DNA of 64,000 nucleotides from Microcella alkaliphila (lineage in GTDB: Bacteria; Actinomycetota; Actinomycetes; Actinomycetales; Microbacteriaceae): contig NZ_AP017315.1 of NCBI RefSeq assembly GCF_002355395.1, forward strand, positions 1,674,001-1,738,000. Direction: 5' to 3'. Shown one piece after another: positions 7-46,539 of the stretch. The position numbers and the translations under genes were made by a program. Position 1 is the first letter of the stretch; the number at the start of each line of letters is the position of its first letter. The notes beneath the pieces were generated by a model, which saw only the letters and a program-made list of their open reading frames with translations, was not told where the DNA came from and did no database searches.

Positions 7-160
7 GTCAACAACTCAGGACTAGTGCGCCTCGTCTCCTCCCGGTGCCAATCCGCGGGGGTGTCGACAACTCAGGACCAACGCGGCCGGTCGCGCTGCC
101 GTGGCCCGGCCGGACGCGGGTCGCCGGGCCATCGCACTGCGTTAGTCCTGAGTTGTTGAC
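7..160. repeat. Repeat cluster C1 (forward, forward, reverse)
   Basis: Three copies of the dispersed 21-bp repeat: forward at 7-25 (degenerate after the core, reading ACTAGTG) and at 63-83 (variant GTCGACAACTCAGGACCAAC), and reverse at 140-160. Left-edge spacings are 56 and 77 bp. The cluster fills the space upstream of the P-loop gene that starts at 187. The gene to its left is outside the window. No promoter could be identified between 160 and 187. Confidence 0.9.
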
Positions 161-186
161 ACGCGGGCGGCGACTACAGTCGTCGG

Positions 187-774
187 GTGCCGAAGCGTGT
201 GCCCAGCCCCGAGCTCATGGCCGCGGTGGACGCGCTCAGAGCGCCGGATGCGCGGGTCGCCATCGCGGGGGTCTCCGGCTCGGGGAAGTCCACGCTCGCT
301 CGCCGGCTGTCGGCGGCCGTCGATCTGCCCTACACCGAGCTGGACGCCCTGCACTGGGGAGCCGATTGGACTCCGCGGCCCTCGTTCGCGGACGACGTCT
401 GTGAACTCGTCGCTCGCGAACGCTGGGTCACGGAGTGGCAGTACCGCGCGGTGCGCCCCCTGATCCTCGGACGGGCAACGGTGATGATCTGGCTGGATCC
501 GCCGTTCCGCACGACCTTCCGACGGGTGGTTTCACGGACACTGTGGCGACGCCTCCGGCGCGAAGAGCTGTGGAACGGCAACCAGGAACCGGGCATCCGG
601 CACGCAATTCTGCACCGCGAGGGGATCATCCGCTGGACGGTGTCGACCCGCAACAAGTATCGCAACCTCATCGAGAGTGCTGTGCGCACCCGTCCCGACC
701 TCGTTGTCCTGCGCACCCGCCGAACCCGAGAAGTGCGGGCACTCCTCGCCGCGGTGTCAACAACTCAGGACTAA
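187..774 (+). CDS. Small P-loop nucleoside-kinase-like ATPase (AAA / topology-modulation type)
   Basis: A 195-residue protein with a Walker A motif GVSGSGKST at residues 28-36, followed by an acidic LDALHW segment and a basic helix-rich C-terminal half with ArgArg pairs. This is the layout of the small adenylate-kinase-like family often annotated as AAA ATPase or DNA topology modulation protein; the substrate is unknown. The start taken is GTG at 187; an in-frame ATG at 217 would still keep the P-loop. The last six residues (VSTTQD) and the TAA stop are encoded by a copy of the dispersed repeat (756-776), so the original C-terminus was probably replaced when the repeat arrived. Repeat clusters lie on both sides of the gene. 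Confidence 0.8.
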   Translation: MPKRVPSPELMAAVDALRAPDARVAIAGVSGSGKSTLARRLSAAVDLPYTELDALHWGADWTPRPSFADDVCELVARERWVTEWQYRAVRPLILGRATVMIWLDPPFRTTFRRVVSRTLWRRLRREELWNGNQEPGIRHAILHREGIIRWTVSTRNKYRNLIESAVRTRPDLVVLRTRRTREVRALLAAVSTTQD

Positions 775-943
775 CGCGTGAGGTGCGGCCCGTTAGCCGC
801 AACACTGCGCGACGAAATGACCGTGATCGCGGCGTTAGTCCTGAGTTGTTGACGGCGACCCGGTTCGGGCGGCGCGGCGTTAGTCCTGAGTTGTTGACGG
901 CGACCCGGTTCGGGCCGCGCGGCGTTAGTCCTGAGTTGTTGAC
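756..943. repeat. Repeat cluster C2 (forward, reverse, reverse, reverse)
   Basis: One forward copy (756-776), which supplies the stop codon of the preceding gene, then three reverse copies at 833-853, 878-898 and 923-943. The last three form a near-perfect tandem array with a 45-bp period in which the spacer (GGCGACCCGGTTCGGGC followed by a GC-rich stretch) is duplicated with the repeat. The forward-to-reverse step is 77 bp. The cluster separates two convergent genes, the P-loop gene and leuA. Confidence 0.93.
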
Positions 944-987
944 GGCCCAGGGGCAGGCGCCGCACATCGCGGCACAGCGCCACACCC

Positions 988-2787
<1,800 letters not shown>

Positions 2788-2804
2788 TCAGCCGACGACG
2801 AACT

Positions 2805-2842
2805 CCGCGACGAGGGAGGCTAAGGGCTAAGCCTCGTCGCGG
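2805..2842 (-). promoter_or_regulatory. Hairpin in the leuA leader (probable attenuator)
   Basis: Perfect 11-bp inverted repeat: CCGCGACGAGG at 2805-2815 and CCTCGTCGCGG at 2832-2842, with a 16-base loop. On the leuA transcript the 5' arm overlaps the last codons of the leader peptide, so a ribosome stalled on the Leu codons at 2848-2856 would cover it and stop the hairpin forming. No U-run follows the 3' arm, so the effect may be Rho-dependent termination or blocked translation rather than intrinsic termination. Confidence 0.65.
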
Positions 2843-2883
2843 CAACGAAGAAGAAGCGTGCCGAACACGCTTTCAGGGTACAC
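2827..2883 (-). CDS. Leucine leader peptide upstream of leuA
   Basis: A short ORF on the leuA strand. From GTG at 2868 it reads M-F-G-T-L-L-L-R-C-R-D-E-A-stop; an in-frame GTG at 2883 would add five residues (V-Y-P-E-S). The three consecutive leucines are all CTT codons (2848-2856), a rare choice in such GC-rich DNA, which suits a charging sensor. The stop TAG (2827-2829) lies in the loop of the downstream hairpin. Leader-peptide control of leuA is established in several actinobacteria; its operation here is inferred. No strong ribosome-binding site is visible, and the exact start is unsettled. Confidence 0.65.
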   Translation of the reverse strand: MYPESVFGTLLLRCRDEA

Positions 2884-2962
2884 CCGGCGCGCACGCACCC
2901 GCCAACGGCACGGGATGCACGCCCCCGGTACGACTGCCGGCCCGGTTCTGTACGACTAAAGG

Positions 2963-4339
2963 ATGAAAGCTCGCATCCGAGCGGATGAACGGGGCGCGTT
3001 TCGCGCGACGCGCCGCTTCGCGATGCGTAGCGTGACGCTCATGTTCGACCGAATAGTCACGTGGTTCACGCCCCAAAGGGCTGCGCTCCTCCGGTTCTCG
3101 CTCGAGATCGCGCTCGGCGCGTCATTCACGATTGCAGTGCTTCTCAACCAACAGTGGTGGGGAGGGGCATCTCACACCATCGGAAACGCCTTGGTCGCTT
3201 TCGCACTAGGTGCGGGGGTCGCACTCCACCGCATTCGCCCTCACTACGCCCTTGCTGGTTTAGGGTTCGCGGTGTTGGGTGTACTCCTTGCAGCCCTATC
3301 GGGCGCGAGCGCTACGCCACTCACCATTGTTGGGGCGGCAGTAATCGTGTTTGGCGCTGCCGCGTATGGAACGCCGCTCGCTCGAAACGTTGCTCTGGGC
3401 ATTTCGCTTGTTGCGGCAGTCTCGCTCGTTCTTGCATTTGCACTGGGCAGCGCATTCTCTGGGAACACCAGCATCTTTTACGTCGCCAGCCGAATCATCG
3501 AGTTACTGATTTGGCCACTACTCGCGATGCTCCCGTGGGTCCTCGGCGAACTCGTGCGCAACATCCGCAACCGCCGAACGCTCTCCGCCGCCGTCGAAAC
3601 GGTGAGCACCGAGCGCGACGCCGCACTCACCCGTGCCGACCTCGAGGCCGAGCGCACGCGGGTGGCGCGCGACGTGCACGACATCGTGGCGCACTCCCTC
3701 ACGGTGGTCATCGCCCAGGCCGACGGTGCGCGCTACGCGACGACAGCCGACTCCCCCGCCGCGGCCGACGCGTTCGGCGCGATCGCGCAGACGGCGCGTG
3801 ACGCGCTCGCCGACGTGCGCACGCTGCTCACCGAACTCCGGCACACACAGGAGTCCGGGCCGCAGCCCGGGCTCGCCAACCTCGATGCGCTGTTCGAATC
3901 ATTCCGCGATTCTGGGCTCGAGCTCACCGTGCATGAGTTCGGCGATCGGGGTCGACTCACCGATGCCCGCGAGCTGGCGCTCTACCGAATCGCGCAAGAG
4001 TCGCTCACGAACGCCCTCCGCCACGGCGATGGCGCGGCAACCCTCGACCTCGACTGGGGCGACGCGACCGTCGACCTGCTCGTCACGAACGTCGCGGCGG
4101 CCCCGGCCCCGGCGACAACCGACGCGGCCGTCACAGTGGTGAAGCACGGCGACCACCAGCCCGAACGCGGCCACGGCATCGACGGGATGCGCGAACGTTC
4201 GATCCTTGCGGGCGGCGAGTTCAGCATCCATGAGGGCGCGACGTATCGCGTGAGGGCGCGGCTCCCGCGGGAACCGCTCGAGCATCCCCGCTCCGAGGCT
4301 CGGGACAGCGAGGACGTCGTCACCGAGGTGCACGCGTGA
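2963..4339 (+). CDS. Sensor histidine kinase (NarL/DesK-type two-component system)
   Basis: Membrane sensor kinase of 458 residues. About five or six hydrophobic segments lie between residues 45 and 195, followed by a coiled dimerisation region and a HisKA_3 box, RVARDVHDIVAHS, with phosphorylatable His239. The N-box is RIAQESLTNALRHG, and the ATPase domain ends in a GHGIDGMRER motif. The start is uncertain: ATG 2963 lies directly behind AAAGG, and ATGs at 3023 and 3041 are alternatives. The sensor half (about 3060-3540) uses many T- and A-ending codons, including in-frame TTA at 3260 and 3503, unlike the kinase half, which suggests a mosaic gene. It overlaps a tiny ORF that leads into the response regulator. 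Confidence 0.9.
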   Translation: MKARIRADERGAFRATRRFAMRSVTLMFDRIVTWFTPQRAALLRFSLEIALGASFTIAVLLNQQWWGGASHTIGNALVAFALGAGVALHRIRPHYALAGLGFAVLGVLLAALSGASATPLTIVGAAVIVFGAAAYGTPLARNVALGISLVAAVSLVLAFALGSAFSGNTSIFYVASRIIELLIWPLLAMLPWVLGELVRNIRNRRTLSAAVETVSTERDAALTRADLEAERTRVARDVHDIVAHSLTVVIAQADGARYATTADSPAAADAFGAIAQTARDALADVRTLLTELRHTQESGPQPGLANLDALFESFRDSGLELTVHEFGDRGRLTDARELALYRIAQESLTNALRHGDGAATLDLDWGDATVDLLVTNVAAAPAPATTDAAVTVVKHGDHQPERGHGIDGMRERSILAGGEFSIHEGATYRVRARLPREPLEHPRSEARDSEDVVTEVHA

Positions 4340-4476
4340 CCGCGCCGGTGTCGCCCGGGAACGCGCCGGCGAGCCACTCAGCCGCCGACGCCGCGACCGT
4401 CACTATTCCGGTCGGATTCGTCGTTGTGCCGCGCCGGCCTCTCACCCCGGCCACCCTCCCGTGGAGTGCCGCGTGA
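4336..4476 (+). CDS. Possible small protein bridging kinase and regulator
   Basis: An ORF of 46 codons that starts at a GTG overlapping the kinase stop (GTGA at 4336-4339) and ends with a TGA at 4474-4476 that overlaps the GTG start of the response regulator (4473). It encodes an Ala/Pro-rich peptide with one short hydrophobic stretch, VTIPVGFVVV. The overlaps at both ends would allow unbroken translational coupling across the three reading frames. No homologue is recognised. It could be a real small protein, a coupling device, or chance; the regulator also has its own GGAG ribosome-binding site. Confidence 0.35.
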   Translation: MTAPVSPGNAPASHSAADAATVTIPVGFVVVPRRPLTPATLPWSAA

Positions 4477-5159
4477 AACCAATTCGCGTGCTACTGGTGG
4501 ACGATCAGCCGCTGTTCCGGCGCGGGATGCGCATGCTCATCGAGTCGCAACCCGACCTCACCGTTGTCGGCGAGGCAGGCGACGGGGGCGAGGCGGTGAC
4601 CGCGGCCGCCGAACACTCGCCCCACGTTGTTCTGATAGATATCCGCATGCCGCGCGTCGACGGCATCGCCGGCACGAGCGGCATCCTGCGCGCCGCAGCC
4701 GAGGCTGAACAGACAGCGCCCCGCATCATCGTGCTCACCACCTTCGACCTCGACGACGCGGCGCTGCGGGCAATCCGCGCCGGCGCGAGCGGCTTCCTGC
4801 TGAAGGACGCCGAGCCCGAGTTCCTGCTCGCCGCAATCCGCGCCGTGCACGGCGGACACGCCGTCGTCGCGCCCGGCGCGATCGCCGACCTGCTCACCCA
4901 CGTGGATGCCCGCCCCGCGCCCCCGGCAGACCTCACCGCGGCGCGCGACACCGCCCTCACCGCCCTCAGCCCCCGCGAGCGCGAGATTTTTGGCACCATC
5001 GCCGAGGGCCTGAGCAACGCCGAGATCGCCGAACGCGAGTACGTCAGCGAGGCGACGGTGAAGTCACACGTGGGGCGCATTCTCGCAAAACTCGGACTGC
5101 GCGACCGGGTGCAGGTGGTGCTCTACGCGCACGACCACGGGTTGCTCCCTCGCCGCTGA
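4473..5159 (+). CDS. LuxR/NarL-family response regulator
   Basis: Receiver domain (about 4-120) with acidic pair Asp10/Asp11, phosphoacceptor Asp56 in LIDIRMP and the conserved Lys in FLLKDAE. A C-terminal GerE/LuxR helix-turn-helix follows (LSPREREIF, then NAEIAEREYVSEATVKSHV). The start taken is GTG 4473, because GGAG lies six bases upstream and the KPIRVLLVDDQ sequence begins there; GTG 4461 is an in-frame alternative. It is the partner of the histidine kinase just upstream. The targets are unknown. The 262 bases between this gene and era contain a short imperfect direct repeat around CCACCTGGCCGA but no gene. Confidence 0.93.
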   Translation: MKPIRVLLVDDQPLFRRGMRMLIESQPDLTVVGEAGDGGEAVTAAAEHSPHVVLIDIRMPRVDGIAGTSGILRAAAEAEQTAPRIIVLTTFDLDDAALRAIRAGASGFLLKDAEPEFLLAAIRAVHGGHAVVAPGAIADLLTHVDARPAPPADLTAARDTALTALSPREREIFGTIAEGLSNAEIAEREYVSEATVKSHVGRILAKLGLRDRVQVVLYAHDHGLLPRR

Positions 5160-5421
5160 GGGCCGCGCACCCCCGCCCGCGTGCCGCCCGGCGGGCTCTC
5201 CCACCTGGCCGAGACACCGGACCGGCCCATCCACCTGGCCGATATCCCCGGGTGGATGTCTGCAGGACCGACAGCGCGGCGCAACGCGCCGAGTCTTGTG
5301 GCCGACACTCCGCAACCGCACTCGACCTGTCGGCCTGGCAGACACCGCCCTCGAACATGAGGCGTCACCGAGGCAGTCCGCTGCGCAGCTGATACCGCGG
5401 GGAGCGCGCGCCGAACGGCCC

Positions 5422-6399
5422 CTAGAACCCGAGTCGACCCAACTGCTTCGGGTCGCGCTGCCACTCTTTGGCGACCTTCACGTGCAGCTTCAGAAACACG
5501 CGACGCCCAAGCAACTGCTCGATCTCGCCGCGGGCCCGCCGGCCCACGTCGCCGAGCCGCGAGCCGCGGTGGCCGATGATGATGCCCTTCTGGCTGTCGC
5601 GCTCCACCCAGACGTTGGCGAAGATTTGCAGCAGGCCGTCGCCCTCGCGCTCGACCATCTCGTCGATCGTGACGGCGAGCGAGTGCGGCAGCTCGTCGCT
5701 GACGCCCTCGAGCGCCGCCTCGCGGATGAGCTCGGCGACCCGGTCCTCCTCGGTCTCGTCGGTCGTCGACTCGGCCTCGTAGAGCGGCGGCGACACGGGC
5801 ATGAGGCGAATCAGCTCGTCGGCGAGCACGTCGACCTGGTCGCCGGTGAGCGCCGACAGCGGGATCACGAGGTCCCAGTCGCGCAGGGCCGACACGGCGA
5901 TGAGCTGCTCGGCGACGCGCTCGGGGCCGACGCGGTCGGTCTTCGTCACGATCGCAACCTTGCGTACGCGGCCGCCGTGCGCATCCAGCTGCTCGTTGAT
6001 GTATGTGTCGCCGGGGCCGATCGGCTCGCCGGCGGGAACGCAGAACCCGATCACGTCGACGTCGCCGAGCGTCTCCTGCACGAGCGCGTTGAGCCGCTCG
6101 CCGAGGAGCGTGCGGGGCCGGTGCACGCCCGGCGTGTCGACGACGATCAACTGCCCGGATGCTCGGTGCACGATCCCGCGGATCGCCCGCCGCGTCGTCT
6201 GCGGCTTTGAGGAGGTGATGGCGACCTTTTCGCCGACGAGCGCGTTCATGAGGGTCGACTTGCCGACGTTCGGGCGGCCGACGAAGGTGACGAATCCGGC
6301 TCGGTGTTCCGCGGTTTCGGAAGGGGGTGTCGCGCTGGCGCGGGGTGTGCGGGCGGGAGGGGCGTCGGGGGCGTCGGGGGCGTCGGGGGCGTCGGTCAC
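5422..6399 (-). CDS. era: GTPase Era
   Basis: Era binds GTP and the 3' end of 16S rRNA during 30S subunit maturation. The 325-residue protein has G1 GRPNVGKST (41-49), the switch region PQTTR, G3 DTPG, G4 TKTD and a C-terminal KH domain with GIIIGHRGSRL. The N-terminus carries an extra Ala/Pro/Asp-rich tail with DAP repeats encoded by a 9-bp DNA repeat. The GTG start at 6399 overlaps the stop of the upstream CBS-domain gene (GTGA), so the two are translationally coupled. It is the last gene of a ribosome and RNA maturation operon. Confidence 0.96.
   Translation of the reverse strand: MTDAPDAPDAPDAPPARTPRASATPPSETAEHRAGFVTFVGRPNVGKSTLMNALVGEKVAITSSKPQTTRRAIRGIVHRASGQLIVVDTPGVHRPRTLLGERLNALVQETLGDVDVIGFCVPAGEPIGPGDTYINEQLDAHGGRVRKVAIVTKTDRVGPERVAEQLIAVSALRDWDLVIPLSALTGDQVDVLADELIRLMPVSPPLYEAESTTDETEEDRVAELIREAALEGVSDELPHSLAVTIDEMVEREGDGLLQIFANVWVERDSQKGIIIGHRGSRLGDVGRRARGEIEQLLGRRVFLKLHVKVAKEWQRDPKQLGRLGF
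6361..6398. repeat. 9-bp tandem repeat at the start of era
   Basis: Unit GCGTCGGGG repeated three times plus a diverged fourth copy, encoding the DAPDAPDAPDAP tail of Era. The unit is a multiple of three, so copy-number changes would alter tail length without shifting the frame. Confidence 0.85.
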
Positions 6400-7481: not shown

Positions 7482-7942
7482 CAGCGTTTGCGTTCGGCGA
7501 GCGTGTAGCCGACGAGCACGTCGCGCTGGATGCCGAACATCTCGCGCTCTTCCTCGGGCTCGGCGTGGTCGAAGCCGAGCAGGTGCAGCAGGCCGTGGGT
7601 GGTGAGCAGCAGCAGCTCGTCCATCACCGAGTGCCCGGCCGTTTCGGCCTGGGCGATCGCGACCTGCGGGCAGAGCACGATGTCGCCGAGTAGCCCCGGC
7701 GGGGTCGGCTCGTCGTCGCTGCCGGGGCGCAGCTCGTCCATCGGGAAGCTCAGCACGTCGGTCGGGCCGGGCTCGTCCATCCACTCGATGTGTAGCCGCT
7801 CCATGGCGCCCTCATCGACCATCTGGATCGCGACCTCGGCATCGGGATGCACGTTCAAGTGGTCAAACGCGTACACGACGAGCCGCTGGATCGCCGCCTC
7901 GTCGACGTCGATGCCCGACTCGTTGTTGATCTCGACGCTCAC
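7481..7942 (-). CDS. ybeY: Endoribonuclease YbeY
   Basis: Metal-dependent RNase needed for 16S rRNA 3'-end maturation and rRNA quality control. The 153-residue protein has the family signature HGLLHLLGFDH with zinc ligands His116, His120 and His126. It is coupled by ATGA to the downstream CBS-domain gene and lies 25 bases after phoH, the usual actinobacterial order phoH-ybeY-corC-era. Confidence 0.96.
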   Translation of the reverse strand: MSVEINNESGIDVDEAAIQRLVVYAFDHLNVHPDAEVAIQMVDEGAMERLHIEWMDEPGPTDVLSFPMDELRPGSDDEPTPPGLLGDIVLCPQVAIAQAETAGHSVMDELLLLTTHGLLHLLGFDHAEPEEEREMFGIQRDVLVGYTLAERKR

Positions 7943-7967
7943 GCGCGACCTCTCGCCCTACTCACGC

Positions 7968-9450: not shown

Positions 9451-9540
9451 GAGCGCAATTCTACGGGCGATATCGGATGCGCGCCCCGGCTACCGCTCAG
9501 GGTTCGCTTGCAGCGGAGCCGCTGACGTGCCGAAAAGCGA

Positions 9541-10287: not shown

Positions 10288-10297
10288 GCCGCCGACG

Positions 10298-12421: not shown

Positions 12422-12458
12422 GCGATGCCCCCTTTCGTGCCGCTCGCCGCCGCCATTC

Positions 12459-12485
12459 CTGGCACTCACCTGACGTGACTGCCAA
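12459..12485. promoter_or_regulatory. CIRCE-like operator
   Basis: CTGGCACTC, nine bases, GACTGCCAA. The arm length and the 9-base spacer match the CIRCE consensus TTAGCACTC-N9-GAGTGCTAA, with the arm positions mostly conserved. It lies upstream of hrcA, where HrcA would repress its own operon. The rightward DUF4870 gene starts about 175 bases away, so an effect on it is possible but unsupported. Confidence 0.75.
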
Positions 12486-16890: not shown

Positions 16891-17901
16891 ATGCGCGTCA
16901 TCGTGATCGGAGCCGGAGCCGTCGGCGGGGTGCTCGCCGCGCTCCTCCACCGCGCGGGGCACGTCGTCGCGGTGGTCGCGCGCGGTGAGCACGCGGCGGC
17001 GATCGCGGCCGACGGTCTTCACGTCGACGGGGGCTGGGGCAAGTGGCGCGCCCGCGTCTCGGTCGTGGGCGGCGACGCCGAGGCAGCCGACCTTCTCGTG
17101 CTCGCCACGAAAGCGCATGACTCCGCGGCGGCGCTCCCAGAGTGGGCCGGCCACGACGGCACTCCGGTGCTGGTGCTGCAAAACGGTCTGGGTGGCGAGC
17201 AGGCGGTTCGGGATGCGCTTCCGAACTCTCCCGTCGCCGTCGGCCTGGCGCTGTTCGCCGTGAGCCTCACCGGCCCCGGTCGCATCACCGTGACCGGGCC
17301 GAACGGTCTGACGCTCGGAGGTGAAGACGACGCCGTGGCGGTCACAGAGCCGGTCTTGCGCCATGCGCTTCCGGCGGAGCTCACCGTCACCGACGACATC
17401 CGCGGCGCACAGTTCACCAAGCTGCTCATCAACCAGGTCAATGCCCTACCCGCCATCACCGGGCTGAGCGTCCAGCAGACCATCGCCGATGACCGACTCC
17501 GCCGCGTTCTCACAAGCGGGATGGTCGAAACCGTCGCTGTCGGCGACGCCGAGGGCGTCTCGTGGGGCCCGATCGGGGGCGTGAATGCGGACGCCGTCGC
17601 GCGCATTCGAGAGCGAGGCCGTGTCGCCGCCGACGAGCTGGCGAGGCGCCTGGCCACAGGGATGGGGGACGTGCCGAACCCGGCATCCATGCTGCAGAGT
17701 ATTCGCCGCGGTCGTGTGACCGAGGTCGATCAGATCAACGGTGTCATCGTCGCCCTCGGCGGTGCGCACGGCGTGCCCACGCCGGTGAACTCCGCGCTCG
17801 TTGCGCTCGTGCACGAGGTCGAACGCACCGGCGAGCACCTCAGCCCCGCGGACACCCTCGCCCGCCTCGCCCTCGCGCTCCCGTCAACAACTCAGGACTA
17901 A
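16891..17901 (+). CDS. panE: 2-dehydropantoate 2-reductase (ketopantoate reductase)
   Basis: NADPH-dependent reduction of ketopantoate to pantoate in coenzyme A synthesis. The 336-residue protein has the Rossmann motif GAGAVGG (7-13), LATKAHD, the catalytic-Lys segment FTKLLINQVNALPAITG and a C-terminal domain with PNPASMLQ. Many paralogues of this family exist, so the substrate is inferred. The last residues PSTTQD and the TAA stop come from a copy of the dispersed repeat (17883-17903), just as in the P-loop gene at 187. Confidence 0.88.
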   Translation: MRVIVIGAGAVGGVLAALLHRAGHVVAVVARGEHAAAIAADGLHVDGGWGKWRARVSVVGGDAEAADLLVLATKAHDSAAALPEWAGHDGTPVLVLQNGLGGEQAVRDALPNSPVAVGLALFAVSLTGPGRITVTGPNGLTLGGEDDAVAVTEPVLRHALPAELTVTDDIRGAQFTKLLINQVNALPAITGLSVQQTIADDRLRRVLTSGMVETVAVGDAEGVSWGPIGGVNADAVARIRERGRVAADELARRLATGMGDVPNPASMLQSIRRGRVTEVDQINGVIVALGGAHGVPTPVNSALVALVHEVERTGEHLSPADTLARLALALPSTTQD

Positions 17902-18012
17902 CGCGCGGGCACCTCCCGCCCCGCTCGTCAACAACTCAGGACTAGCGCGCGCGAACGCGCCCGTAGAGGCGGGTGTCGCGTCGTGCCGGACCGTTAGTCC
18001 TGAGTTGTTGAC
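17883..18012. repeat. Repeat cluster C3 (forward, forward, reverse)
   Basis: Forward copies at 17883-17903 (in the panE 3' end, supplying its stop) and 17927-17947, and a reverse copy at 17992-18012. Spacings are 44 and 65 bp. The cluster fills the gap between two convergent genes; the stop of the next gene is at 18017. Confidence 0.95.
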
Positions 18013-18016: not shown

Positions 18017-18487
18017 TCAGCCGCGGATCGCGGCGACGGCGGCCCAGGCGAGCGCGCCGAACGCGACGCCCCACAGGATGATCGAGATGATCTGCCAGAC
18101 GATGACCTTCTGCTTCGACGCGCCGATCCCCACCATGATTGACGACGTGATCTGGCTCGGCAGAATCCACTGACCGAGCAGGCTCACGCCGGGCACACCC
18201 CACTTGTCGAACGCTCGGGTGAAGCTCTGACGGCGGGGGCTCAGCGGCTTCTCGGCGTTCGTGAGCTTGTCGCGGGCGCCGCTCGTCGCGAGCACCACGA
18301 TCGTCATGGATGCAATGTTCCCGGCGATGGCGGCCAGGATCGCGACGATTGGCGTCACCCCGACGACGATCCCGATCGGGCCCGCACCGTACGACTCGAC
18401 GAACGGAATCGCTCCCGCCCCCATGACGGCGAGCCACTGCCACAGCGGGTCGACGGACGCGGTGAACTCTTGAATATCGGCAATCAC
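18017..18487 (-). CDS. Small multidrug-export-like membrane protein
   Basis: A 156-residue membrane protein with about four helices and the segment GAGAIPFVESYGAGPIG, characteristic of the Sm_multidrug_ex family (Pfam PF06695); the transport role of that family is not firmly established. A basic loop (KLTNAEKPLSPRRQSF) lies between helix pairs. Repeat clusters C3 and C4 flank the gene on both sides. Confidence 0.75.
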   Translation of the reverse strand: MIADIQEFTASVDPLWQWLAVMGAGAIPFVESYGAGPIGIVVGVTPIVAILAAIAGNIASMTIVVLATSGARDKLTNAEKPLSPRRQSFTRAFDKWGVPGVSLLGQWILPSQITSSIMVGIGASKQKVIVWQIISIILWGVAFGALAWAAVAAIRG

Positions 18488-18586: not shown

Positions 18587-18726
18587 GTCAACAACTCAGG
18601 ACTAACGCCGCCAGCGGCCGTGATCGCGCCGCGGCAGACCGCGTGATGGCGCGTTAGTCCTGAGTTGTTGACACCGGGTGGGGCGGGCGCGGGCGCCGCG
18701 GCGCGCGCTAGTCCTGAGTTGTTGAC
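18587..18726. repeat. Repeat cluster C4 (forward, reverse, reverse)
   Basis: Forward copy at 18587-18607, reverse copies at 18652-18672 and 18706-18726, with spacings of 65 and 54 bp. It lies 11 bases after the stop of the short aldehyde dehydrogenase gene and upstream of the small membrane protein, both leftward. The rest of 18488-18737 shows no gene. Confidence 0.93.
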
Positions 18727-30818: not shown

Positions 30819-31126
30819 GTCAACAACTCAGGACTAACGGCCGCGGTCGCAACGCAGTTCTTCACGTCCGGCCGTCAACAACTCAGGACTAGCGCTGCGC
30901 GCGCCGCAGGAGCGCACCACGCGGCAACGCCAACAACTCAGGACTAGCGGGGTTCTGCGACTGTGCCTCCCGCGGCCTGGGTGGGCACGGGACTCGTTAG
31001 TCCTGAGTTGTTGACAGCGGGTTGCGGGCGCGGGTGCAGGGGTCGCGCGCGTTAGTCCTGAGTTGTTGACACCGGCGCTACGGGCGCGGGCACAGGTGCC
31101 GCGCGCGCTAGTCCTGAGTTGTCGAC
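30819..31126. repeat. Repeat cluster C5, largest (three forward, three reverse)
   Basis: Forward copies at 30819-30839, 30874-30894 and 30929-30949 (the last starts GCCAAC), then reverse copies at 30995-31015, 31050-31070 and 31106-31126. Left-edge spacings are 55, 55, 66, 55 and 56 bp, so the array is nearly mirror-symmetric. The spacers 31016-31049 and 31071-31105 resemble each other (both contain CGGGCGCGGG and GCGCGCG), pointing to growth by duplication. It lies between the convergent genes rpsT and holA. Confidence 0.95.
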
Positions 31127-35377: not shown

Positions 35378-35491
35378 GCGGCGAGGCTACGAGGCGACCA
35401 CCCCTCCAGCGGCCCACGCCCGCTCGATCGGGGACGAGCATCCCGAGGCGCCCCTGTGGGGGACGCACGCGGCACCCACCGGGCGCGCCCG

Positions 35492-38077
<2,586 letters not shown>

Positions 38078-38137
38078 GGGGCTCTCAATCGCGAAAAGTG
38101 GGGTGGCTGTCGGGGCGCAGTGACCCGACGTCCCAGG

Positions 38138-39538: not shown

Positions 39539-39550
39539 ACGCTGAAGTGT

Positions 39551-40393
39551 ATGGGCGCGGGCGGCGGGGCGATCGGCAGCACCCTCGTCTGGCGCCCCGA
39601 TGCGGCGGGCACCACGCGCGCCTTCACGACGGTCGACTGGTGCGACCCGGGGCAGGGCGGGGTTGCCGTCGCCGACTCGTTTCGGCTGGACGGCGGACGA
39701 GTGCGCGGCCTCGCTCACCATCGGCAGCGTTTCCTCGCGAGCGCGGCGATAAACGGTCCTGGCGAGCTGGAGCGCGCCACCGCCTTCTGGGAGGATGCGC
39801 TGGCGGCCCTGCGCACGATCGTGGCGGCCGACCCCGAGCATCCCGCCCTGTTCCCCCGCCTGGAGAGGCGCGAGCGCGGGGAGTTTCGGCTGCTCGTGCG
39901 CCCGAGCCCTCCGATCGTCACGGGCGACGGCCTCGCCGCGATCACCGTGGCGACGGCAACACACGACCCGCGACGCGTGCCGCTCGTCAAAGGCCCCGAC
40001 CTGGAGCGGCTCGCCGCGCTGCGCACGCAGGCACAGCTCGCCGGCGCGGATGAGGCCGTCATCGTGGATGCTCGGGGCCGCCTCGTCGAGGGCGCGTACA
40101 GCTCCCTGCTCATCGCGCGCGACGGCCGCCTGGCGGTCATCGGGCAGCCGGCCCCGCGCATCCCCAGTGTGACCGAGCGTCTCGTGCGGGACGCCGCCCG
40201 CACGCACGGGCTCGCGGTCGACGAGGCCCGCCCCACCGTCGCCGAGCTGGCCAGAACGAGCCTGTGGGTGCTGAGCGCCCTGCACGGGGCCCGCGCGGTC
40301 GAGCGCTGGGTGGACGGGCCCGTACTCGTGCGTGACGGTGAGCGCGACGCGTGGCTGCGCCACACCCTTGCGAACGCCGCGACCGCGCTGTGA
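39551..40393 (+). CDS. pabC: Class IV aminotransferase (aminodeoxychorismate lyase-like)
   Basis: A 280-residue PLP-dependent fold-type IV protein with the cofactor Lys in VPLVKGPDLERLA and the later segment ADEAVIVDARGRLVEGAYSSLLI. Its position opposite pabB supports 4-amino-4-deoxychorismate lyase, which releases 4-aminobenzoate for folate synthesis. The exact start is unsettled because ATG 39551 lies only 12 bases from the pabB start. Confidence 0.85.
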   Translation: MGAGGGAIGSTLVWRPDAAGTTRAFTTVDWCDPGQGGVAVADSFRLDGGRVRGLAHHRQRFLASAAINGPGELERATAFWEDALAALRTIVAADPEHPALFPRLERRERGEFRLLVRPSPPIVTGDGLAAITVATATHDPRRVPLVKGPDLERLAALRTQAQLAGADEAVIVDARGRLVEGAYSSLLIARDGRLAVIGQPAPRIPSVTERLVRDAARTHGLAVDEARPTVAELARTSLWVLSALHGARAVERWVDGPVLVRDGERDAWLRHTLANAATAL

Positions 40394-40411
40394 CCAACGA
40401 CATGTGTCGAG

Positions 40412-40429
40412 TACCCCCCAAAAGGGGCA
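40412..40429. promoter_or_regulatory. TACCCC box upstream of the first DUF2510 gene
   Basis: TACCCC, CCAAAA, GGGGCA: an imperfect inverted repeat resembling the perfect TACCCCC-N5-GGGGGTA at 48312-48330 ahead of the third DUF2510 gene. A possible operator, about 105 bases before the gene. Proposed from comparison within this window only. Confidence 0.4.
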
Positions 40430-40534
40430 CACTCGTACTGGGGGGACCTATCCGTCTAGTCGACAGAGCCTCGCAACCTTAGACTGCACACAGCCGGTCG
40501 GGGGATCGGCACTCGAACTCGGGGGCGATACATC

Positions 40535-42244
40535 GTGGCAGACGACGAATACGGGCGCGTACCTGCAGGGTGGTATCCCGATCCCTTGGGGCTTCCGCAG
40601 CTTCGCTGGTGGGACAACCACGCCTGGACGGAGCACGTCTCAGACGCGCGCCAGCCGATGGTGCCCACCGAGACCGCGTACGCCGACGATGACCTTCCGC
40701 GCCGCCGCGACCGGCGCAGCGCCGAGTCGGCCGACAGCACGCCCGTCGACGGCGGCGTCAACGACAGCCAGCCTGCGCAGCAGCCCACCGCACAGGTGTT
40801 GCGTCAGCTCGCCCCTCCCGTCGCCGACGCAAAGGTGACCGACGCCGACGCGGCCGCCGCTGCTGCGGCCGCGGCAGCCGCCGCCCGTGAGGAAGCCGAG
40901 CGCGCCCGCAAGATCGCCGAAGCGCGCGCCGAACAGGACCGTCTCGAAGAGGCCCGCCGAGAACAGGAGCGTGTCGAAGCCGCCCGTCTCGAGGCAGAGC
41001 GTGTGCAGGCAGAGCGTCGCGAGGCAGAGGCCCGCGCCGCGGCAGCCACCGTCCGGCCGACCGAGTCGATCGGCACGCCGGGAGCGGACAACGCTCCCCC
41101 GCAGGCATCGCGCCCCGCATCGAACGCCGCGGACGCCTTCGCCGCCGCCGCGTTCACCGACCCGAGCGTGAGCTCGGCCACGGCCGCGACCGGAGCCGGC
41201 ACGACGTCGCCGGCGGCCTCACCGTGGGTTCCCGTCAACCGGGACGAGATGACCGCTGAGCCCCGCTCGGCGCGCTCCAGCGTGAATTCGGCCAGCAGCC
41301 AGGCGAGCGTCGCCTCAGCGGCCTCCGTCACGGGGATGCCCTCGGCCTCGGTTCCCGGAAGTGCCGCCGCCCAGAACCTCGCGGGCAGCACGCCGCACCC
41401 GTACGCACCGGGCTACGGCTCGGCCCCGGGCTACGGCTCGGCCCCCGGCTACGGGTCGGCCCCCGGATTCGGCTCGGCCCCCGGCTACGGCAGCGTTCCG
41501 GGCTACGGTTCGGCGTCGGCACCAGGCTTCGGGAGCGCACCGGGCGCTCCGGGCTATGCGCAGGCCGCGGGCGATGCGCCGGTGTCCGCCGGCCGTCGCG
41601 GAGCACTCGCGGCGGGCGCGCCCGCCGGGGTCGCAGGTCTCCACACCGTCGAGGCGTGGGCGATCGCCCTGCTTCCGATGCTGCAGCTGCTGTTCAGCCT
41701 GCTCGTCGTGTCGGCGTTCGCGACCGGCCCGAGCCTCGCCATGATGGCGGGCATCTGGCTGGGGCCGCTGCCGATCGTCGTCGTGCTCGCGCTTCTCGAC
41801 GCCCGCCGCCTTGGTCGCCTCGGGCTCGACCGCCCGGCCAGCGGCTGGTGGGCCCTCGCCGGTCCGATCGTGTACCTCATCGTGCGGGCTGTGCGCCTGA
41901 GCCGCGTCTCCGGCGTCGGATTCGGCCCCGTCGCGGTCTGGCTGCTCCTCACCGGCCTGATGGGAGCATCCATTTTGGCTGTTCCGGGTCTCGTGATCGC
42001 GTCGTTCCCCGGCGTCTTCGCCGAGCAGGCGAACCAGACGATCTCGTCGACGAGCCGCTCGATCGGCGCGAACCTCACTGCGACGTGCCCCGCCACGCCG
42101 CCCCTGTTCATCGGCCAGCAGCTACGCTGCCCGGCCGTCAACCCGTCCGGTGAGGCCTTCATCGTCACCGTCAGCCTCCAGCGTGCCAACGGTTGGATCG
42201 CGTGGCAGGTCGACGACTGGGGCGTCTTCGGATTCTCGCGCTGA
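40535..42244 (+). CDS. DUF2510 membrane protein with coiled coil and GYGSAP repeats
   Basis: A 569-residue protein. A DUF2510 domain (AGWYPDPLGLPQLRWWDNHAWTEHV) opens it, then an Ala/Glu/Arg-rich coiled coil (about 105-170), a low-complexity region with 6-residue GYGSAP-like repeats encoded by an 18-bp DNA repeat (about 41402-41530), and several hydrophobic segments from about residue 370 to 490. A C-terminal extracytoplasmic domain with two Cys (TCPATPPLFIGQQLRCP) closes it. GTG start. DUF2510 proteins are common actinobacterial envelope proteins of unknown function; two paralogues lie nearby. Confidence 0.88.
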   Translation: MADDEYGRVPAGWYPDPLGLPQLRWWDNHAWTEHVSDARQPMVPTETAYADDDLPRRRDRRSAESADSTPVDGGVNDSQPAQQPTAQVLRQLAPPVADAKVTDADAAAAAAAAAAAAREEAERARKIAEARAEQDRLEEARREQERVEAARLEAERVQAERREAEARAAAATVRPTESIGTPGADNAPPQASRPASNAADAFAAAAFTDPSVSSATAATGAGTTSPAASPWVPVNRDEMTAEPRSARSSVNSASSQASVASAASVTGMPSASVPGSAAAQNLAGSTPHPYAPGYGSAPGYGSAPGYGSAPGFGSAPGYGSVPGYGSASAPGFGSAPGAPGYAQAAGDAPVSAGRRGALAAGAPAGVAGLHTVEAWAIALLPMLQLLFSLLVVSAFATGPSLAMMAGIWLGPLPIVVVLALLDARRLGRLGLDRPASGWWALAGPIVYLIVRAVRLSRVSGVGFGPVAVWLLLTGLMGASILAVPGLVIASFPGVFAEQANQTISSTSRSIGANLTATCPATPPLFIGQQLRCPAVNPSGEAFIVTVSLQRANGWIAWQVDDWGVFGFSR

Positions 42245-42263
42245 GCCACGGCGCGAAACCTCA

Positions 42264-42403
42264 CACCACAGCACAACTGAACAGCGTGACATCCGGGTAC
42301 CCCCCCGGCGTTCGGAAAGCGAAGGGCACGCACGCCCGAAACTCGCGAGATGAGACACCGCCGGAGACACTGGATGTACGCACCACACCACAACTGAACA
42401 TCG
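42264..42403. repeat. 23-bp direct repeat pair in an intergenic region
   Basis: CACCACAGCACAACTGAACA plus GCG at 42264-42286 and CACCACACCACAACTGAACA plus TCG at 42381-42403, 117 bp apart, with two mismatches. They lie in the 314-base gap 42245-42558 between the first two DUF2510 genes. The gap also has a half TACCCCC box at 42298, but no gene is seen in it. A promoter and control region for the second gene is likely. Confidence 0.6.
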
Positions 42404-42558
42404 ACGGCATCCACGCCGCACTCGGCGCCGAATACCCGGTACGAGAGTGACGCGAATGCCGGTCGCGCAGACCCGAACACGCGCGACGCACACCGGTAGC
42501 CGGGGGGCTACGGGTGATCACGAACCCGGTCGGGGGACCGGGATCTGGGGGAATTGCA

Positions 42559-43431
42559 ATGACAACGACGGCAGTTCGGGTGCCGGCAGGTTGGTACGCC
42601 GACCCGCTCAGCGCCGATGCGTCGGGCCAGCCGACGCACCGCCGCTGGTGGGACGGCCACGGCTGGACGCACCACACCGCGCTCATCGGAGACACTCCGC
42701 GCTCGGTTGAGACCGCCTGGAGCGCTCCGACGAGCCCCGACATCTCGCCCGCCACGGTCGAAGCGATGCGCTTGAGCGCCAGCTACACGCAGGAGGCGCG
42801 CCGCGAGGCGGCCCGCGTGGCCGAGACGATGTCGCTGCACCCGGGCACGCCTGTCTCGCCCGTCACGCCCGCCGCTGGCACGCCGGTCGCCACCCGCGCC
42901 GCCGCCGAGGCTCCTGCCGCCCGTGCGGCCACCGCGTCGGCCGCCGGTCTCACGCCCACTCGCCTCGACCTCGACGAGCTGTGGAAGGAAACGCCCACCC
43001 GGCGCCCGCACACTCACCGTGTCGAGCGTCCGAAGGTTCACACGGTCTCGCAGTGGCTCATCGCGGTCATGCCGATCACGCAGGTGCTGATCATGCACTG
43101 GGTGCTCGAGCTGTCCGCCTCCGGAGCCGCCCCGCAGCAGTCCATCTGGCTTGCCATGGTGCTGCCCTTCGTTCTCTACGGCGCGCTCGCCAGCCAGGAT
43201 GCCCGCCAGCTCGCCGCCGCCGGCCACCTGACGTCCACGCCGTGGATCGTGGCGGTCATCATGCCGGCTGTGTACCTCGGCTCGCGCGGAGTGCAACTGC
43301 ACCGGACGACCGGCGCCAGCCCGTGGCCCGCACTGATCCTGTGGGGTCTGTTGCAGGGCGTGGTGGTGGCCGTTGCTACCGTACTCGACCCGGCGTGGTT
43401 CGACCGCGTCCTCGCGGCGGCCGGCCTGTAG
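42559..43431 (+). CDS. DUF2510 membrane protein, second copy
   Basis: A 290-residue protein with an N-terminal DUF2510 domain (VPAGWYADPLSADASGQPTHRRWWDGHGWTHHT region), an Ala-rich linker and a C-terminal membrane domain of about four helices (TVSQWLIAVMPITQVLIMHWV onwards). ATG 42559 has GGGGGAA seven bases upstream; the in-frame GTG 42514 is less likely. It lacks the C-terminal Cys domain of the other two copies. Two tandem hairpins follow. Confidence 0.87.
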   Translation: MTTTAVRVPAGWYADPLSADASGQPTHRRWWDGHGWTHHTALIGDTPRSVETAWSAPTSPDISPATVEAMRLSASYTQEARREAARVAETMSLHPGTPVSPVTPAAGTPVATRAAAEAPAARAATASAAGLTPTRLDLDELWKETPTRRPHTHRVERPKVHTVSQWLIAVMPITQVLIMHWVLELSASGAAPQQSIWLAMVLPFVLYGALASQDARQLAAAGHLTSTPWIVAVIMPAVYLGSRGVQLHRTTGASPWPALILWGLLQGVVVAVATVLDPAWFDRVLAAAGL

Positions 43432-43433
43432 AC

Positions 43434-43511
43434 CGGTCGCGCGGCTGTCCCCCCTTTAGCCGCGCGACCGCACACCGTCGGTGGGCCGAGGGCCCTCGGT
43501 CCACCGACGGT
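43434..43511 (+). terminator. Two tandem hairpins after the second DUF2510 gene
   Basis: First hairpin: CGGTCGCGCGGCT (43434-43446) with AGCCGCGCGACCG (43458-43470), 11-base loop. Second hairpin: ACCGTCGGTGG (43474-43484) with CCACCGACGGT (43501-43511) around the self-complementary CCGAGGGCCCTCGG. Strong stems directly after the stop at 43431. Confidence 0.8.
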
Positions 43512-43544
43512 ATACCCGCACTCTCGCGCGCGTAGGCTCGACGG

Positions 43545-43856
43545 GTGACGTCCGACGACCATCCACGCAGGGCCAGCCTCGAAGTGCTTCGTGCCGAAGC
43601 CGCCGACGAGCTGGCGACGGTCGTGCACGAGCGGGCGCGCGGCGGCGAAGACCCGTGGGACTTCATGTCGGAGATTCCCACCGTCGATGAACTCGTGGTC
43701 TGGATGCTCAGGGCCGACCGCATCGCCGCTGACGGTGGCCGCCGCCCCACCCCCGCCATGAACTACCGCATGCTGCGCCAGATCGCCCTCAGCTACCCCG
43801 ACCTCACGCCGACGGTGTGGAGCATGATCGGGCGCCTCGAGCGCACGGCGGGGTAG
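43545..43856 (+). CDS. Small protein of unknown function
   Basis: A 103-residue soluble acidic protein starting at GTG 43545, with Trp-containing segments DPWDFMSEIPTVDELVVWML and TVWSMIGRLERT. No family is recognised. It ends eight bases before the convergent helicase gene. Confidence 0.6.
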   Translation: MTSDDHPRRASLEVLRAEAADELATVVHERARGGEDPWDFMSEIPTVDELVVWMLRADRIAADGGRRPTPAMNYRMLRQIALSYPDLTPTVWSMIGRLERTAG

Positions 43857-43863
43857 GGCACTC

Positions 43864-46539
43864 TCACAGCCGGGTGAGCCCGGTCACTCGCAGCACGGCG
43901 ACGCCCTCCTCGGCGCTCGCGTCGAGGTCGACGACCGCGTCGATCCCCCAGTCGTGGTGGCCGGCCGGGTCGGCGAGCACCTGACGAACGCGCCAGACGC
44001 GTTCGCCGGGGCGAGCATCCTCGGGCTTCTCATCGATGTGCACGAGCGCCGTCGCCCGCGCGGCGGCGTCGATGCCAATGTCGTCGTGCTCGGCGAAGTA
44101 GGCGTCGAGACCGGCGGGCCAGTCGGCGTCGGGGTCGAGTGCGACAAGCTCGTCGTCCGCCTCGCGCGCGGCCAGCTGCACGCGGCGGAACACCTCATTG
44201 CGCACGAGCACGGTGAAGGCCCGACGGTTGGTGGTGACGTCGGGCGGGGGCGGCGGCGTCACCGGCGTGTCGCTCGGCGCGGCGGGCGTTCCCGCGTCGG
44301 CCGCCTGCGTCAGCGCCTCCCACTCGTCTTGCAGGCTCGAGTCGACCTGGCGCACGAGCTCGCGCAGCCACTCGACGATGTCGGTCAGCTCGTCGGTCAT
44401 CGCCTCCGGCGGTACGGTCTGACGCAGCGCGCGGTCGGCGTCGCTCAGATACCGCAGCAGTCCGCCCTCGCTGCGCTGCAGTTGGTAGAAGCTGACGTAC
44501 TCGCCGAACGTCATCGCGCGTTCGAACATGTCGCGCACGACGCTCTTCGGCTTCAGCTCGACGTCGCGAATCCACGGCTGGGCGGCCGCGAAACCCTCGA
44601 ACGCCTCCTCGAGGAGCTCGGCGAGCGGCTGCGGGTGCGTGACGGCCTCGAGCCGCTCCATCCGCTCGTCGTACTCGATACCGTCGGCCTTCATCTGGGC
44701 GACAGCCTCGCCGCGGGCACGGAACTGCTGCTGCGAGAGCACGGCGCGCGGGTTGTCGAGCGTCGCCTCAACGACGCTCACGACATCGAGGGCGTAGTGC
44801 CCCGTGCCGAGCAGGCCGTTCGCGGCGCCGGTGTCGTCGCGACGGAAGCCGACGGTGTCGGCCGGGTCGAGCATCCCGATCACCGACAGGGCGAACGGGC
44901 TGAGGGGCTGGTTGAGGGCGAAGTTCGGCTGCAGGTCGACGGTCAGCCGCACCTCGGGTGTCAACAACTCAGGACTACTGCGAGATGACCCCACCGTCTG
45001 GGGCTCGTCAGCGCCGTCATCGGCCGTTAGTCCTGAGTTGTCAACACGAGACTCGGGTGGGCGCACGATCTCGACGACGCCGGCCGTGACGAGGGTCTTG
45101 GCGATGCCGAGCGCGCGGCGCACGAGCTCTCGCTGACGGTGGGGCGGCTCGTGGTTCTCGGTGAGCAGCGCGCGGGCGTGGGCGACGACGTCTCCCCCGC
45201 GGGCAATCAGGTTGATGAGCATCGCCGCTGACACCTGCATGCGGCTCTCGAGCGGCTCGGGCGGTGCGGCAACGAGCCGCTCGAACGTCTTCTCTGTCCA
45301 CACGACGGTGCCGGCGGGTGCCGACTTCTTGGGCGCCTTCTTCACCTTTTTGCCGCTCGTCCCGGCCTTCTGCGCCTTCGCCTCGGCCTGCGCGTTTTCG
45401 ACGTCGTGCTCAGGGGCCTGCACGACGACGAAACCTTCATCGTCGAAGCCGGCGCGGCCCGCCCGCCCCGCGACCTGGTGAAACTCGCGCGCGGTGAGGT
45501 GGCGGGTTTTCTCGCCGTCGTATTTGCTGAGCGCCGTCAGCAGCACTGTGCGAATCGGCACGTTGATGCCGACGCCGAGGGTGTCGGTGCCGCAGATGAC
45601 CTTCAGCAGACCCTTCTGGGCGAGCACCTCGACGAGGCGTCGGTACTTGGGCAGCATGCCCGCGTGGTGCACGCCGATGCCGGAGCGCACGAGCCGGCTG
45701 AGGGTCTGCCCGAAGCCGGTCGTGAAGCGAAATTCGCCGAGCTCGCGGGCGATCTCGTCGCGCTGCTCGCGCGTGATCACCTTGATGCTCGACAGCGCCT
45801 GCGCGCGCTCCATCGCGGCGGCCTGGCTAAAGTGCACGACGTAGACGGGGGCCCGCCGCTCCTCGAGCAGTCTTTGCACCGTTTCGTGCACAGGCGTGCG
45901 CACGTACTCGTACGACAGCGGGATCGGCCGCTCGGTGTGCGTGACCTCGCTGACGGGATGCCCGGTGCGCCTCTCGAGGTCGCTCGCGATCGCGCTCACG
46001 TCGCCGAGCGTCGCACTCATCAGCAGGAAGCGCGTGCCGGTCAGTTCGAGCAGCGGCACCTGCCACGCCCACCCGCGCTCGGGATCGGCGTAGTAGTGGA
46101 ACTCGTCCATGACGACGTGACCCACATCGAGCGCGTCACCCGAGCGCAGCGCCTGGTTGGCAAGGATCTCGGCCGTGCAGCAGATAATCGGCGCGTCACC
46201 GTTGACGGCGCTGTCTCCGGTCACCATGCCGACGTTCTCGGCGCCGAAAGTGTCGACCAGCTGGAAGAACTTCTCGCTCACGAGCGCCTTGATGGGTGCC
46301 GTGTAATAGCTGCGACGCCCCTGCGCGAGCGCGATCGCGTGGGCGGCGACGGCGACGAGGCTCTTGCCGCTACCGGTCGGGGTGGCGAGCACCACGTGGG
46401 CTCCGGCGACGAGCTCGAAGATCGCCTCCTCCTGCGCCTCATACAGCGGCCGCCCCGTGCTCTCCGCCCAGGCGGCGATCGCGTCGAACGCCGCACCCGC
46501 CTCGAACGGGGCGGGCATTGCGCTCATGAGGGGGGTCAC
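43864..46539 (-). CDS. Ski2-like DEAD/DEAH-box RNA helicase (DUF3516 type) with a repeat insertion
   Basis: A superfamily 2 helicase of 891 residues: motif I ATPTGSGKS (52-60), motif II DEFHYY (145-150), SAT motif III, and motif VI QVAGRAGRAGF. A long C-terminal part follows, as in the DUF3516 helicases of actinobacteria, thought to act on RNA. Between about residues 498 and 528 sits a segment (RVDNSGLT, 15 residues, SSPELLTPEVR) that is entirely the product of an inserted pair of the dispersed repeat. The frame is kept, and the protein is presumably functional with an extra surface loop. The start is GTG 46539 or one of two nearby ATGs. Confidence 0.9.
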   Translation of the reverse strand: MTPLMSAMPAPFEAGAAFDAIAAWAESTGRPLYEAQEEAIFELVAGAHVVLATPTGSGKSLVAVAAHAIALAQGRRSYYTAPIKALVSEKFFQLVDTFGAENVGMVTGDSAVNGDAPIICCTAEILANQALRSGDALDVGHVVMDEFHYYADPERGWAWQVPLLELTGTRFLLMSATLGDVSAIASDLERRTGHPVSEVTHTERPIPLSYEYVRTPVHETVQRLLEERRAPVYVVHFSQAAAMERAQALSSIKVITREQRDEIARELGEFRFTTGFGQTLSRLVRSGIGVHHAGMLPKYRRLVEVLAQKGLLKVICGTDTLGVGINVPIRTVLLTALSKYDGEKTRHLTAREFHQVAGRAGRAGFDDEGFVVVQAPEHDVENAQAEAKAQKAGTSGKKVKKAPKKSAPAGTVVWTEKTFERLVAAPPEPLESRMQVSAAMLINLIARGGDVVAHARALLTENHEPPHRQRELVRRALGIAKTLVTAGVVEIVRPPESRVDNSGLTADDGADEPQTVGSSRSSPELLTPEVRLTVDLQPNFALNQPLSPFALSVIGMLDPADTVGFRRDDTGAANGLLGTGHYALDVVSVVEATLDNPRAVLSQQQFRARGEAVAQMKADGIEYDERMERLEAVTHPQPLAELLEEAFEGFAAAQPWIRDVELKPKSVVRDMFERAMTFGEYVSFYQLQRSEGGLLRYLSDADRALRQTVPPEAMTDELTDIVEWLRELVRQVDSSLQDEWEALTQAADAGTPAAPSDTPVTPPPPPDVTTNRRAFTVLVRNEVFRRVQLAAREADDELVALDPDADWPAGLDAYFAEHDDIGIDAAARATALVHIDEKPEDARPGERVWRVRQVLADPAGHHDWGIDAVVDLDASAEEGVAVLRVTGLTRL
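44960..45045. repeat. Repeat cluster C6 inside the helicase gene
   Basis: A forward copy at 44960-44980 (ending ACTACTG) and a reverse copy at 45025-45045 (variant ending TTGTCAAC), 65 bp apart. Only two of the six frames through a copy pair are free of stops; the helicase frame is one of them and reads V-D-N-S-G-L-T and S-P-E-L-L-T. Confidence 0.95.

Follow-up and report, generated by a model that had tools for sequence, protein, structure and literature searches.

What makes a short, asymmetric DNA repeat lie almost invariably in arrays that face one another? The question is raised by a 64,000-nucleotide stretch of the Microcella alkaliphila genome (G000, a single contig of 2,702,837 bp), positions C1:1674001-1738000, the whole of which is called the window below. 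It carries six clusters of a repeat of about 22 bp, in each of which the forward (F) copies come before the reverse (R) copies. The explanation that we favor, with a probability of roughly 0.72 judged from sequence comparisons, is that the repeat would be the binding site of a 330-amino-acid (aa) protein, and that a facing F and R copy would make up one complex. The candidate gene lies about 12 kb to the left of the window, between dsbA-like and glyS (G000 1661425-1662417, minus strand), and its product would combine an AbiEi-like N-terminal region with a C-terminal region of Vsr/MTES_1575-like nuclease fold.

In the window, TCAACAACTCAGGACTA has 21 matches with at most 3 mismatches, against 0.02 expected, and none of 100 shuffles gave 21. 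The 21 copies and six clusters of the initial annotation were recovered at its coordinates, with exactly the orientation strings that it had read, and all F copies precede all R copies. Its repeat length of 21 bp needs a slight correction, the conserved block in G000 being nearer 22 bp (YGTCAACAACTCAGGACTARCG, 38 copies), and the repeat, which had been called dispersed, is not so over the genome. Indeed, a whole-genome search with at most 2 mismatches confines all 38 copies to 1,633,936-1,719,044, that is, to 85 kb of the 2.7-Mb chromosome, and no copy with at most 4 mismatches was found in 160 kb sampled outside this region. The arrays of the window are as follows, with gene names here and below (nadB, glyS, dsbA, etc.) assigned by eye from translations.

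7..160: site array FFR (copies 8+, 64+, 143-), between the 3′ end of a plus-strand gene and a bracketed kinase-like gene
756..943: site array FRRR (copies 757+, 836-, 881-, 926-)
17883..18012: site array FFR (copies 17884+, 17928+, 17995-), between convergent gene ends (open frames, our own reading)
18587..18726: site array FRR (copies 18588+, 18655-, 18709-)
30819..31126: site array FFFRRR (copies 30820+, 30875+, 30930+, 30998-, 31053-, 31109-; spacings 55, 55, 68, 55, 56), in the gap between rpsT and holA (as read), which converge
44960..45045: site pair FR, spacing 67, within the coding sequence of a helicase-like gene (43864-46539, minus strand)

The facing order extends beyond the window. 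Diverging clusters elsewhere in G000, which had been named as evidence that would count against it, were looked for, and opposite-orientation neighbors at most 130 bp apart are FR in 12 cases and RF in none. A few F and R partners in G000 are widely separated, within genes (205, 257, and 371 bp). Pooling 16 genomes gives 160 FR, 8 RF, 20 FF, and 22 RR neighbors, counts that are not independent as the genomes are related; when each of six clades is represented by a single genome, the count is 69 FR against 3 RF. The convergent rule is thus strong but not absolute, RF neighbors being present in G001, G003, G008, G011, G054, and G106.

The distances between copies follow the DNA helix. Counted between 17-mer starts, F and R copies are mostly 67-68, 77-81, 89-91, or 100-101 bp apart, in steps of about 11 bp, and copies of the same orientation are mostly 33-35, 43-46, or 54-57 bp apart. 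Over 16 genomes, the phase concentration R of the F-R distances is 0.92 at a period of 11-11.25 bp (n = 159; F-R units were limited to 60-110 bp, which excluded 1 of 160), and that of same-orientation distances is about 0.75 (n = 42). Some genomes favor a single step: distances between 14-mer starts are 81-82 bp in G006, G007, and G020 (78-79 in the 17-mer register), bar one short pair in each, 70-71 bp in 15 of 20 cases in G054 (67-68), and an unusually short 59-60 bp in G048 (56-57). In the GC-rich interval between facing copies, A/T recurs with a period of 10.75 bp counted from the motif, with a power of 0.093 against a null 95% value of 0.0032 and a null maximum of 0.0071 (159 units; F-R units outside 58-106 or 66-106 bp between 14-mer starts were excluded from the phase tests and from the fold tests given below). 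None of 500 shuffles reaches the signal either in G000 alone or in six clade representatives pooled (69 units), and the phasing is also present in G007, G054, and G108. Because F-R spacing steps by about 11 bp and A/T recurs every 10.75 bp, the DNA between facing sites is probably bent on a protein complex. It is very likely that the sites are bound by protein in helical phase.

The sites bracket the candidate gene. With at most 3 mismatches, an F-R pair lies 107-223 bp upstream of the start codon, as chosen by us, in all 19 genomes of a first set of orthologues (12 Microcella, 7 others), and another at the 3′ end in 16 of the 19. A stricter count finds facing pairs adjoining the gene on at least one side in 22 of 22 genomes and on both sides in 18. 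Near its C-terminus, the protein often has the residues N-S-G, as the motif at the 3′ end would encode, and 20 of the 38 G000 sites lie within 15 kb of the gene. Further motif-bearing genomes yielded the gene in 4 of 5 and then in 2 of 4 cases (the latter G193 and G048). In total, 25 of the 30 motif-bearing genomes read have it, and four of the five misses concern partial stretches. None of the four motif-poor genomes that show both dsbA and glyS (G019, G113, G061, G083) carries it. The order dsbA / candidate / glyS is the same in 21 of 22 genomes; in G108 (C1:2002001-2022000), unlike in the other 21, the AbiEi-like gene and dsbA have exchanged places, and F-R pairs still bracket each of them. 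In G048, the genome with the short F-R spacing, the homologue (C6, about 176606-177783) is read in two overlapping frames. A paralogue of the candidate at G000 1103077-1104096 has only single 9-mer pairs at its flanks, about what chance would give according to our own estimate, made with no formal control.

Motif and protein also diverge together. Across 17 genomes, the partial r between motif distance and the whole candidate protein is 0.72 (N-terminal 90 residues 0.68, middle 0.64, nuclease part 0.52), against 0.26 for the best of 44 neighboring control genes, all taken from the region, those with fewer than 14 orthologues excluded. A partial Mantel test with 23 genomes gives 0.63 for the N-terminal 90 residues, 0.64 for the middle, and 0.33 for the nuclease part, each with P = 0.0005. 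Co-variation and bracketing together make it probable that the repeats are bound by the 330-aa protein.

Searches of Pfam with 17 orthologues (E ≤ 0.1) give MTES_1575 in 13 (best 2.3e-8), AbiEi_4 in 9 (2.5e-5), and DUF559 in 8 (0.0037), and list no HUH family. D237, G238, and H242 are invariant in these orthologues and E235 is nearly so, which suggests that catalysis is retained.

The motif itself is shared by Microcella species, Yonghaparkia sp. Root332, and an Actinomycetota metagenome-assembled genome. The exact 15-mer is found in 9 of 26 genus genomes, G000 included, a looser 16-base pattern in 15 of 26, and the exact 14-mer in 7 of 398 family genomes, six of those from the same genus. Diverged motifs were sought by a k-mer search using geometry alone, that is, facing pairs. 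It returned CTCCACAATTCAGGAG-like words in G006, G007, G008, and G020 and GGAAATTCAGGAG-like words in G054 and G108, which belong to other genera, with just two pairs in G106. G019 gave no facing-pair word, and G113 and G104 gave only GC-rich words of low count, although G104 has two pairs around the candidate gene. In the family Microbacteriaceae, 60 of 398 genomes match the pattern CGGAAAYTCAGGA. At least 10 copies are present in 21 genomes of 13 other genera, where reversed controls gave 0 in all 21, and the candidate gene was confirmed beside sites in 10 of these 13 genera. In Microcella, the sites are kept within about 50-100 kb around the gene, and more widely in other genera. An F-R pair at G002:C4:69411-69506 lies on a contig other than that of the main region of G002, and G019, a Microcella, is a natural null, with neither gene nor sites in a region of 80 kb that is otherwise syntenic.

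Pairs recur at the same positions, partly across genera: ybaK|dsbA, dsbA|AbiEi, AbiEi|glyS, recO|nifS, inside nadB, TRIC|leuA, hemW|HAD, and rpsT|holA. Between G000 and G002, for 12 of 12 pairs, identity is 446/457 (97.6%) in the motif, 604/715 (84.5%) in the interior, and 1156/1404 (82.3%) in the flanks. For the 4 of 12 pairs alignable with G010, pairs with less than 60% identity or no partner of like length being omitted, it is 91.5, 71.2, and 73.5%, respectively. The motif figures are inflated, as pairs were selected by motif match in both genomes. The change of motif letters in place is not subject to the same degree of pair-selection bias: at both nadB sites, one clade has a CAACAACTCAGGAC-like core and another a CCACAATTCAGGAG-like one, at the same position and with different flanks (12 genomes). 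Neutral decay predicts neither motif conservation nor in-place letter change. Judged by their conservation, the sites are quite likely to be under selection.

How facing arrays could arise follows from a simple model. Two protomers of the candidate protein would sit on one face of the DNA, about five to nine helical turns apart, with the intervening DNA bent. The sites would have to face each other because they are asymmetric and would be read by two equal protomers meeting in the middle. Further F or R copies would be added in phase, on the same face and in the same direction, which would lengthen the array to FF..RR. The pair upstream of the candidate gene would be its likely own operator, and the other loci around the gene (about 15 in G000) would be a local, selectively maintained set of the same complexes. 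The initial annotation had suggested that selection or a fixed mode of formation was at work, with a protein on facing arrays or an inverted mobile unit as examples, and facing protein-binding arrays are indeed the best fit because of the helical-step spacing, the phased A/T, the higher identity of motif than of flanks, and the co-varying candidate protein. More tentatively, the nuclease might act at the sites so that DNA is more readily gained, lost, or exchanged nearby, and the gene and its sites would then form a selfish or domesticated system.

Several observations weigh against this explanation or parts of it. Off-step spacings exist (25, 38, 50, 62, 65, and 66 bp for the same orientation, and one F-R distance of 39, counted with 14-mers). 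The A/T phasing is weak in G005 (18 of 500 shuffles) and weak and non-helical in G001 (best period 7.5; 26 of 500 shuffles). G066 has 14 motif copies yet neither the gene nor a pair at dsbA|glyS, and its gene may have moved or been lost; in the partial stretches of G003 (40 kb, 17 sites), G135 (13 kb), G282, and G138, motif copies are present and no gene was found. G104, G166, and G046 have copies at a great distance from the gene, and in G062 and G191 this distance reaches about 180-220 kb. Co-variation with the motif is as strong for the middle of the protein as for the N-terminal region, so that the test does not point to a DNA-binding domain in particular, and a partner encoded outside the region could co-vary equally, as the controls are regional only. 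The domain matches are weak: the G000 protein matches MTES_1575 best, at E = 1.4e-4, which falls short of the Pfam cut-off, and it shows no match to AbiEi. NCBIfam and PADLOC gave no match for the protein, and an AlphaFold2 model from two sequences was unusable (mean predicted local distance difference test score 37.5). Among solved structures, the best match is 3hrl, with E = 0.53.

The alternative that survives best, although it is unlikely, is a mobile unit of REPIN or MITE (miniature inverted-repeat transposable element) type, in which the facing pair would replicate, with the bracketed nuclease mobilizing it in trans and mostly over short distances. Copying of the pair as a whole would then keep its orientation fixed. 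A single gene bracketed by pairs, the tendency of sites to be densest near it, and the swap of AbiEi and dsbA in G108 are in keeping with such a unit, as is the likeness to RAYT-REPIN, which shares inverted doublets, a linked gene, and extragenic placement (PMC3116915). Some pairs are also present or absent as blocks, of 80-100 bp in the helicase gene and at hemW|HAD and of other sizes elsewhere. Thus, the helicase-gene pair is found in G000, G002, G001, and G022 and is absent from the aligned genes of G004, G005, and G008. Moreover, two small genes of the window are bracketed by arrays.

199..774, plus strand: kinase-like small gene (label read by eye), arrays on both sides
18017..18487, minus strand: membrane-protein-like small gene (DedA-like, by eye), arrays on both sides

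The last codons of the kinase-like gene (S T T Q D stop) fall within the F copy at 757. This gene is bracketed in five genomes, has an unbracketed homologue in G046, and was not found in the examined stretches of the other 20 genomes. The DedA-like gene is bracketed in three genomes, is present without two brackets in two, and is patchy across the genus. Each is a single gene with arrays on either side and is patchy in the genus, as if cassette-like. Block presence or absence, patchy bracketed genes, and the swap in G108 are hints of local recombination at the sites.

Against a mobile unit, interiors differ between copies, save a recent duplicate in G054, and orthologous copies stay intact while their flanks diverge and motif letters change in place. 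The interval is no general hairpin either: mirror complementarity is 33.2% vs. 31.4% (z 2.7), and folds with z < -2 occur in 8% of 159 intervals vs. 4% of 80 controls. The comparisons gave no firm footprint of excision or insertion, and block sizes, among the rows listed, go far beyond 80-100 bp; alignments around absent sites, inspected for a target-site duplication, leave the ends unfixed. No relative of the candidate protein was found in viral contigs. As no motif pair was found there either (one exact pattern), a viral origin was set aside. Tn7-like ends were also considered; in the one feature compared, no fixed terminal base is present (position -2 is C in 20 copies and T in 18). A way of life resembling that of RAYT-REPIN, as portrayed in PMC3116915 and PMC8266576, is possible for sites and gene, though doubtful.

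Less probable still are chromosome-domain sites, which would organize a terminus-proximal domain with a role like that of matS/MatP. The matS sites are many sites for one protein, MatP, and their macrodomain is fixed at the replication terminus. In G000, the single 85-kb site region starts about 70 kb from a dif-like site at 1,563,537 (such a site has exactly one match in 18 of 26 genus genomes and none in 8); dnaA is at 230,851, and a GC skew sample was too weak to use. Among relatives, however, the distance to dif varies from about 40 to more than 250 kb, on either side, and because it varies in size and side it is the genes, not the terminus, to which the region is tied. G104 and G166 have scattered copies, and what stays constant is the link to the gene, not one to dif. 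To the left of the first site pair, a run of small minus-strand genes (G000 C1:1620266-1632574), unmatched in the examined stretches of eight relatives, is probably a prophage or island ending just before that pair. Elsewhere in G000 (C1 666406, 805113, 1929298, 2448561, 2700735), five open frames of 683 aa have identical low Bac_DnaA scores (24.3 bits) and are probably an insertion sequence with an ATPase helper.

Elements acting in RNA, for example bidirectional terminators whose F and R copies would form a long hairpin where genes end, are very improbable. An argument for them is placement in G000: a classification by hand puts 6 of the 11 intergenic loci between genes that converge (P = 0.004 by number, 0.03 by length) and none of the 11 between genes that diverge (P = 0.14 by number, 0.008 by length); in addition, a few interiors fold as strong hairpins. 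This placement is not general, as seven relatives (G001, G003, G004, G005, G007, G008, G020) have a pair or array in the divergent hemW|HAD gap, and sites also lie within nadB and nifS. RNA hairpins need neither helical spacing nor phased A/T, arrays such as FRRR would pair unevenly, and Rfam at gathering score gives no match in the window. Finally, neutral local repeats homogenized by recombination and oriented by chance can practically be dismissed: some arrays have clearly grown by tandem duplication, as in 756..943, where two 45-bp R-R steps with a nearly identical spacer are consistent with duplication of a 45-bp unit for the R copies at 881/926, but 69 FR against 3 RF with one genome per clade, motif conservation, and co-variation with one protein all speak against them.

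The preferred explanation, sites of the 330-aa protein held in facing complexes, can be set beside known systems. A region with many sites for one protein recalls matS/MatP, but the sites here are facing, non-palindromic pairs, and the region follows the gene, not the terminus. MITEs have a shared interior between terminal inverted repeats, which is absent here. With the MTES_1575/DUF559 Vsr-like nuclease-fold proteins, the candidate shares the match of its C-terminal region, with conserved D-G and H residues, whereas no site family or arrays are described for them among the matches listed.

Another comparison is with the AbiE type IV toxin-antitoxin system. Like AbiEi, the candidate has a weak AbiEi-like N-terminal match (9 of 17 orthologues), inverted repeats of about 22 bp upstream of its own gene, and an expected bending of DNA. 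The repeats to which AbiEi proteins bind are inverted, 23 bp long, and separated by 3 or 13 bp; they lie in the promoter of the protein's own gene, which full-length AbiEi bends (PMC7319586). The candidate differs by a nuclease fold at the C-terminus instead of the antitoxin domain, by a distance of about 33-78 bp between repeats, where AbiEi has 3 or 13, and by many copies outside the promoter. We infer that an AbiEi-like head carrying a larger C-terminal body would suit this longer, bent interval between the 22-bp repeats. No AbiEii (DUF1814) toxin gene fits beside the candidate in G000, because the gaps to dsbA-like and glyS are only about 70 and 260 bp (no search for the toxin family was made); in G005, the gap between candidate and glyS is several kb.

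The initial annotation recognized no known family in the repeat, whose layout is akin to that of REPIN-RAYT (REPtron) systems. Both have short repeats as inverted doublets, mainly extragenic, and one bracketed, co-evolving gene. However, the motif here has, on inspection, no internal palindrome, and the interval forms no general hairpin. The bracketed gene is not a Y1/HUH RAYT, Pfam giving MTES_1575, AbiEi_4, and DUF559, and the sites, in Microcella, are regional around it, with helical-step spacing and phased A/T. None of the matches listed in full-text searches, by which subscription papers are mostly uncovered, describes the system. It might tentatively be regarded as a new gene-plus-sites class in Microbacteriaceae, in which an AbiEi-like nuclease-fold protein, bracketed by its own facing, helically phased pairs, would spread and maintain further pairs around itself and evolve a new specificity together with all copies. 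If so, a protein and some 10-50 scattered sites would be seen to shift specificity jointly while the sites stay put, which would offer many natural protein/motif pairs, and a nuclease-fold family for which no described function was found would gain one. It would be a counterpart of RAYT-REPIN that works on double-stranded bent DNA, not on hairpins, and shapes local gene turnover, a new bacterial repeat system beside CRISPR, REP, and parS.

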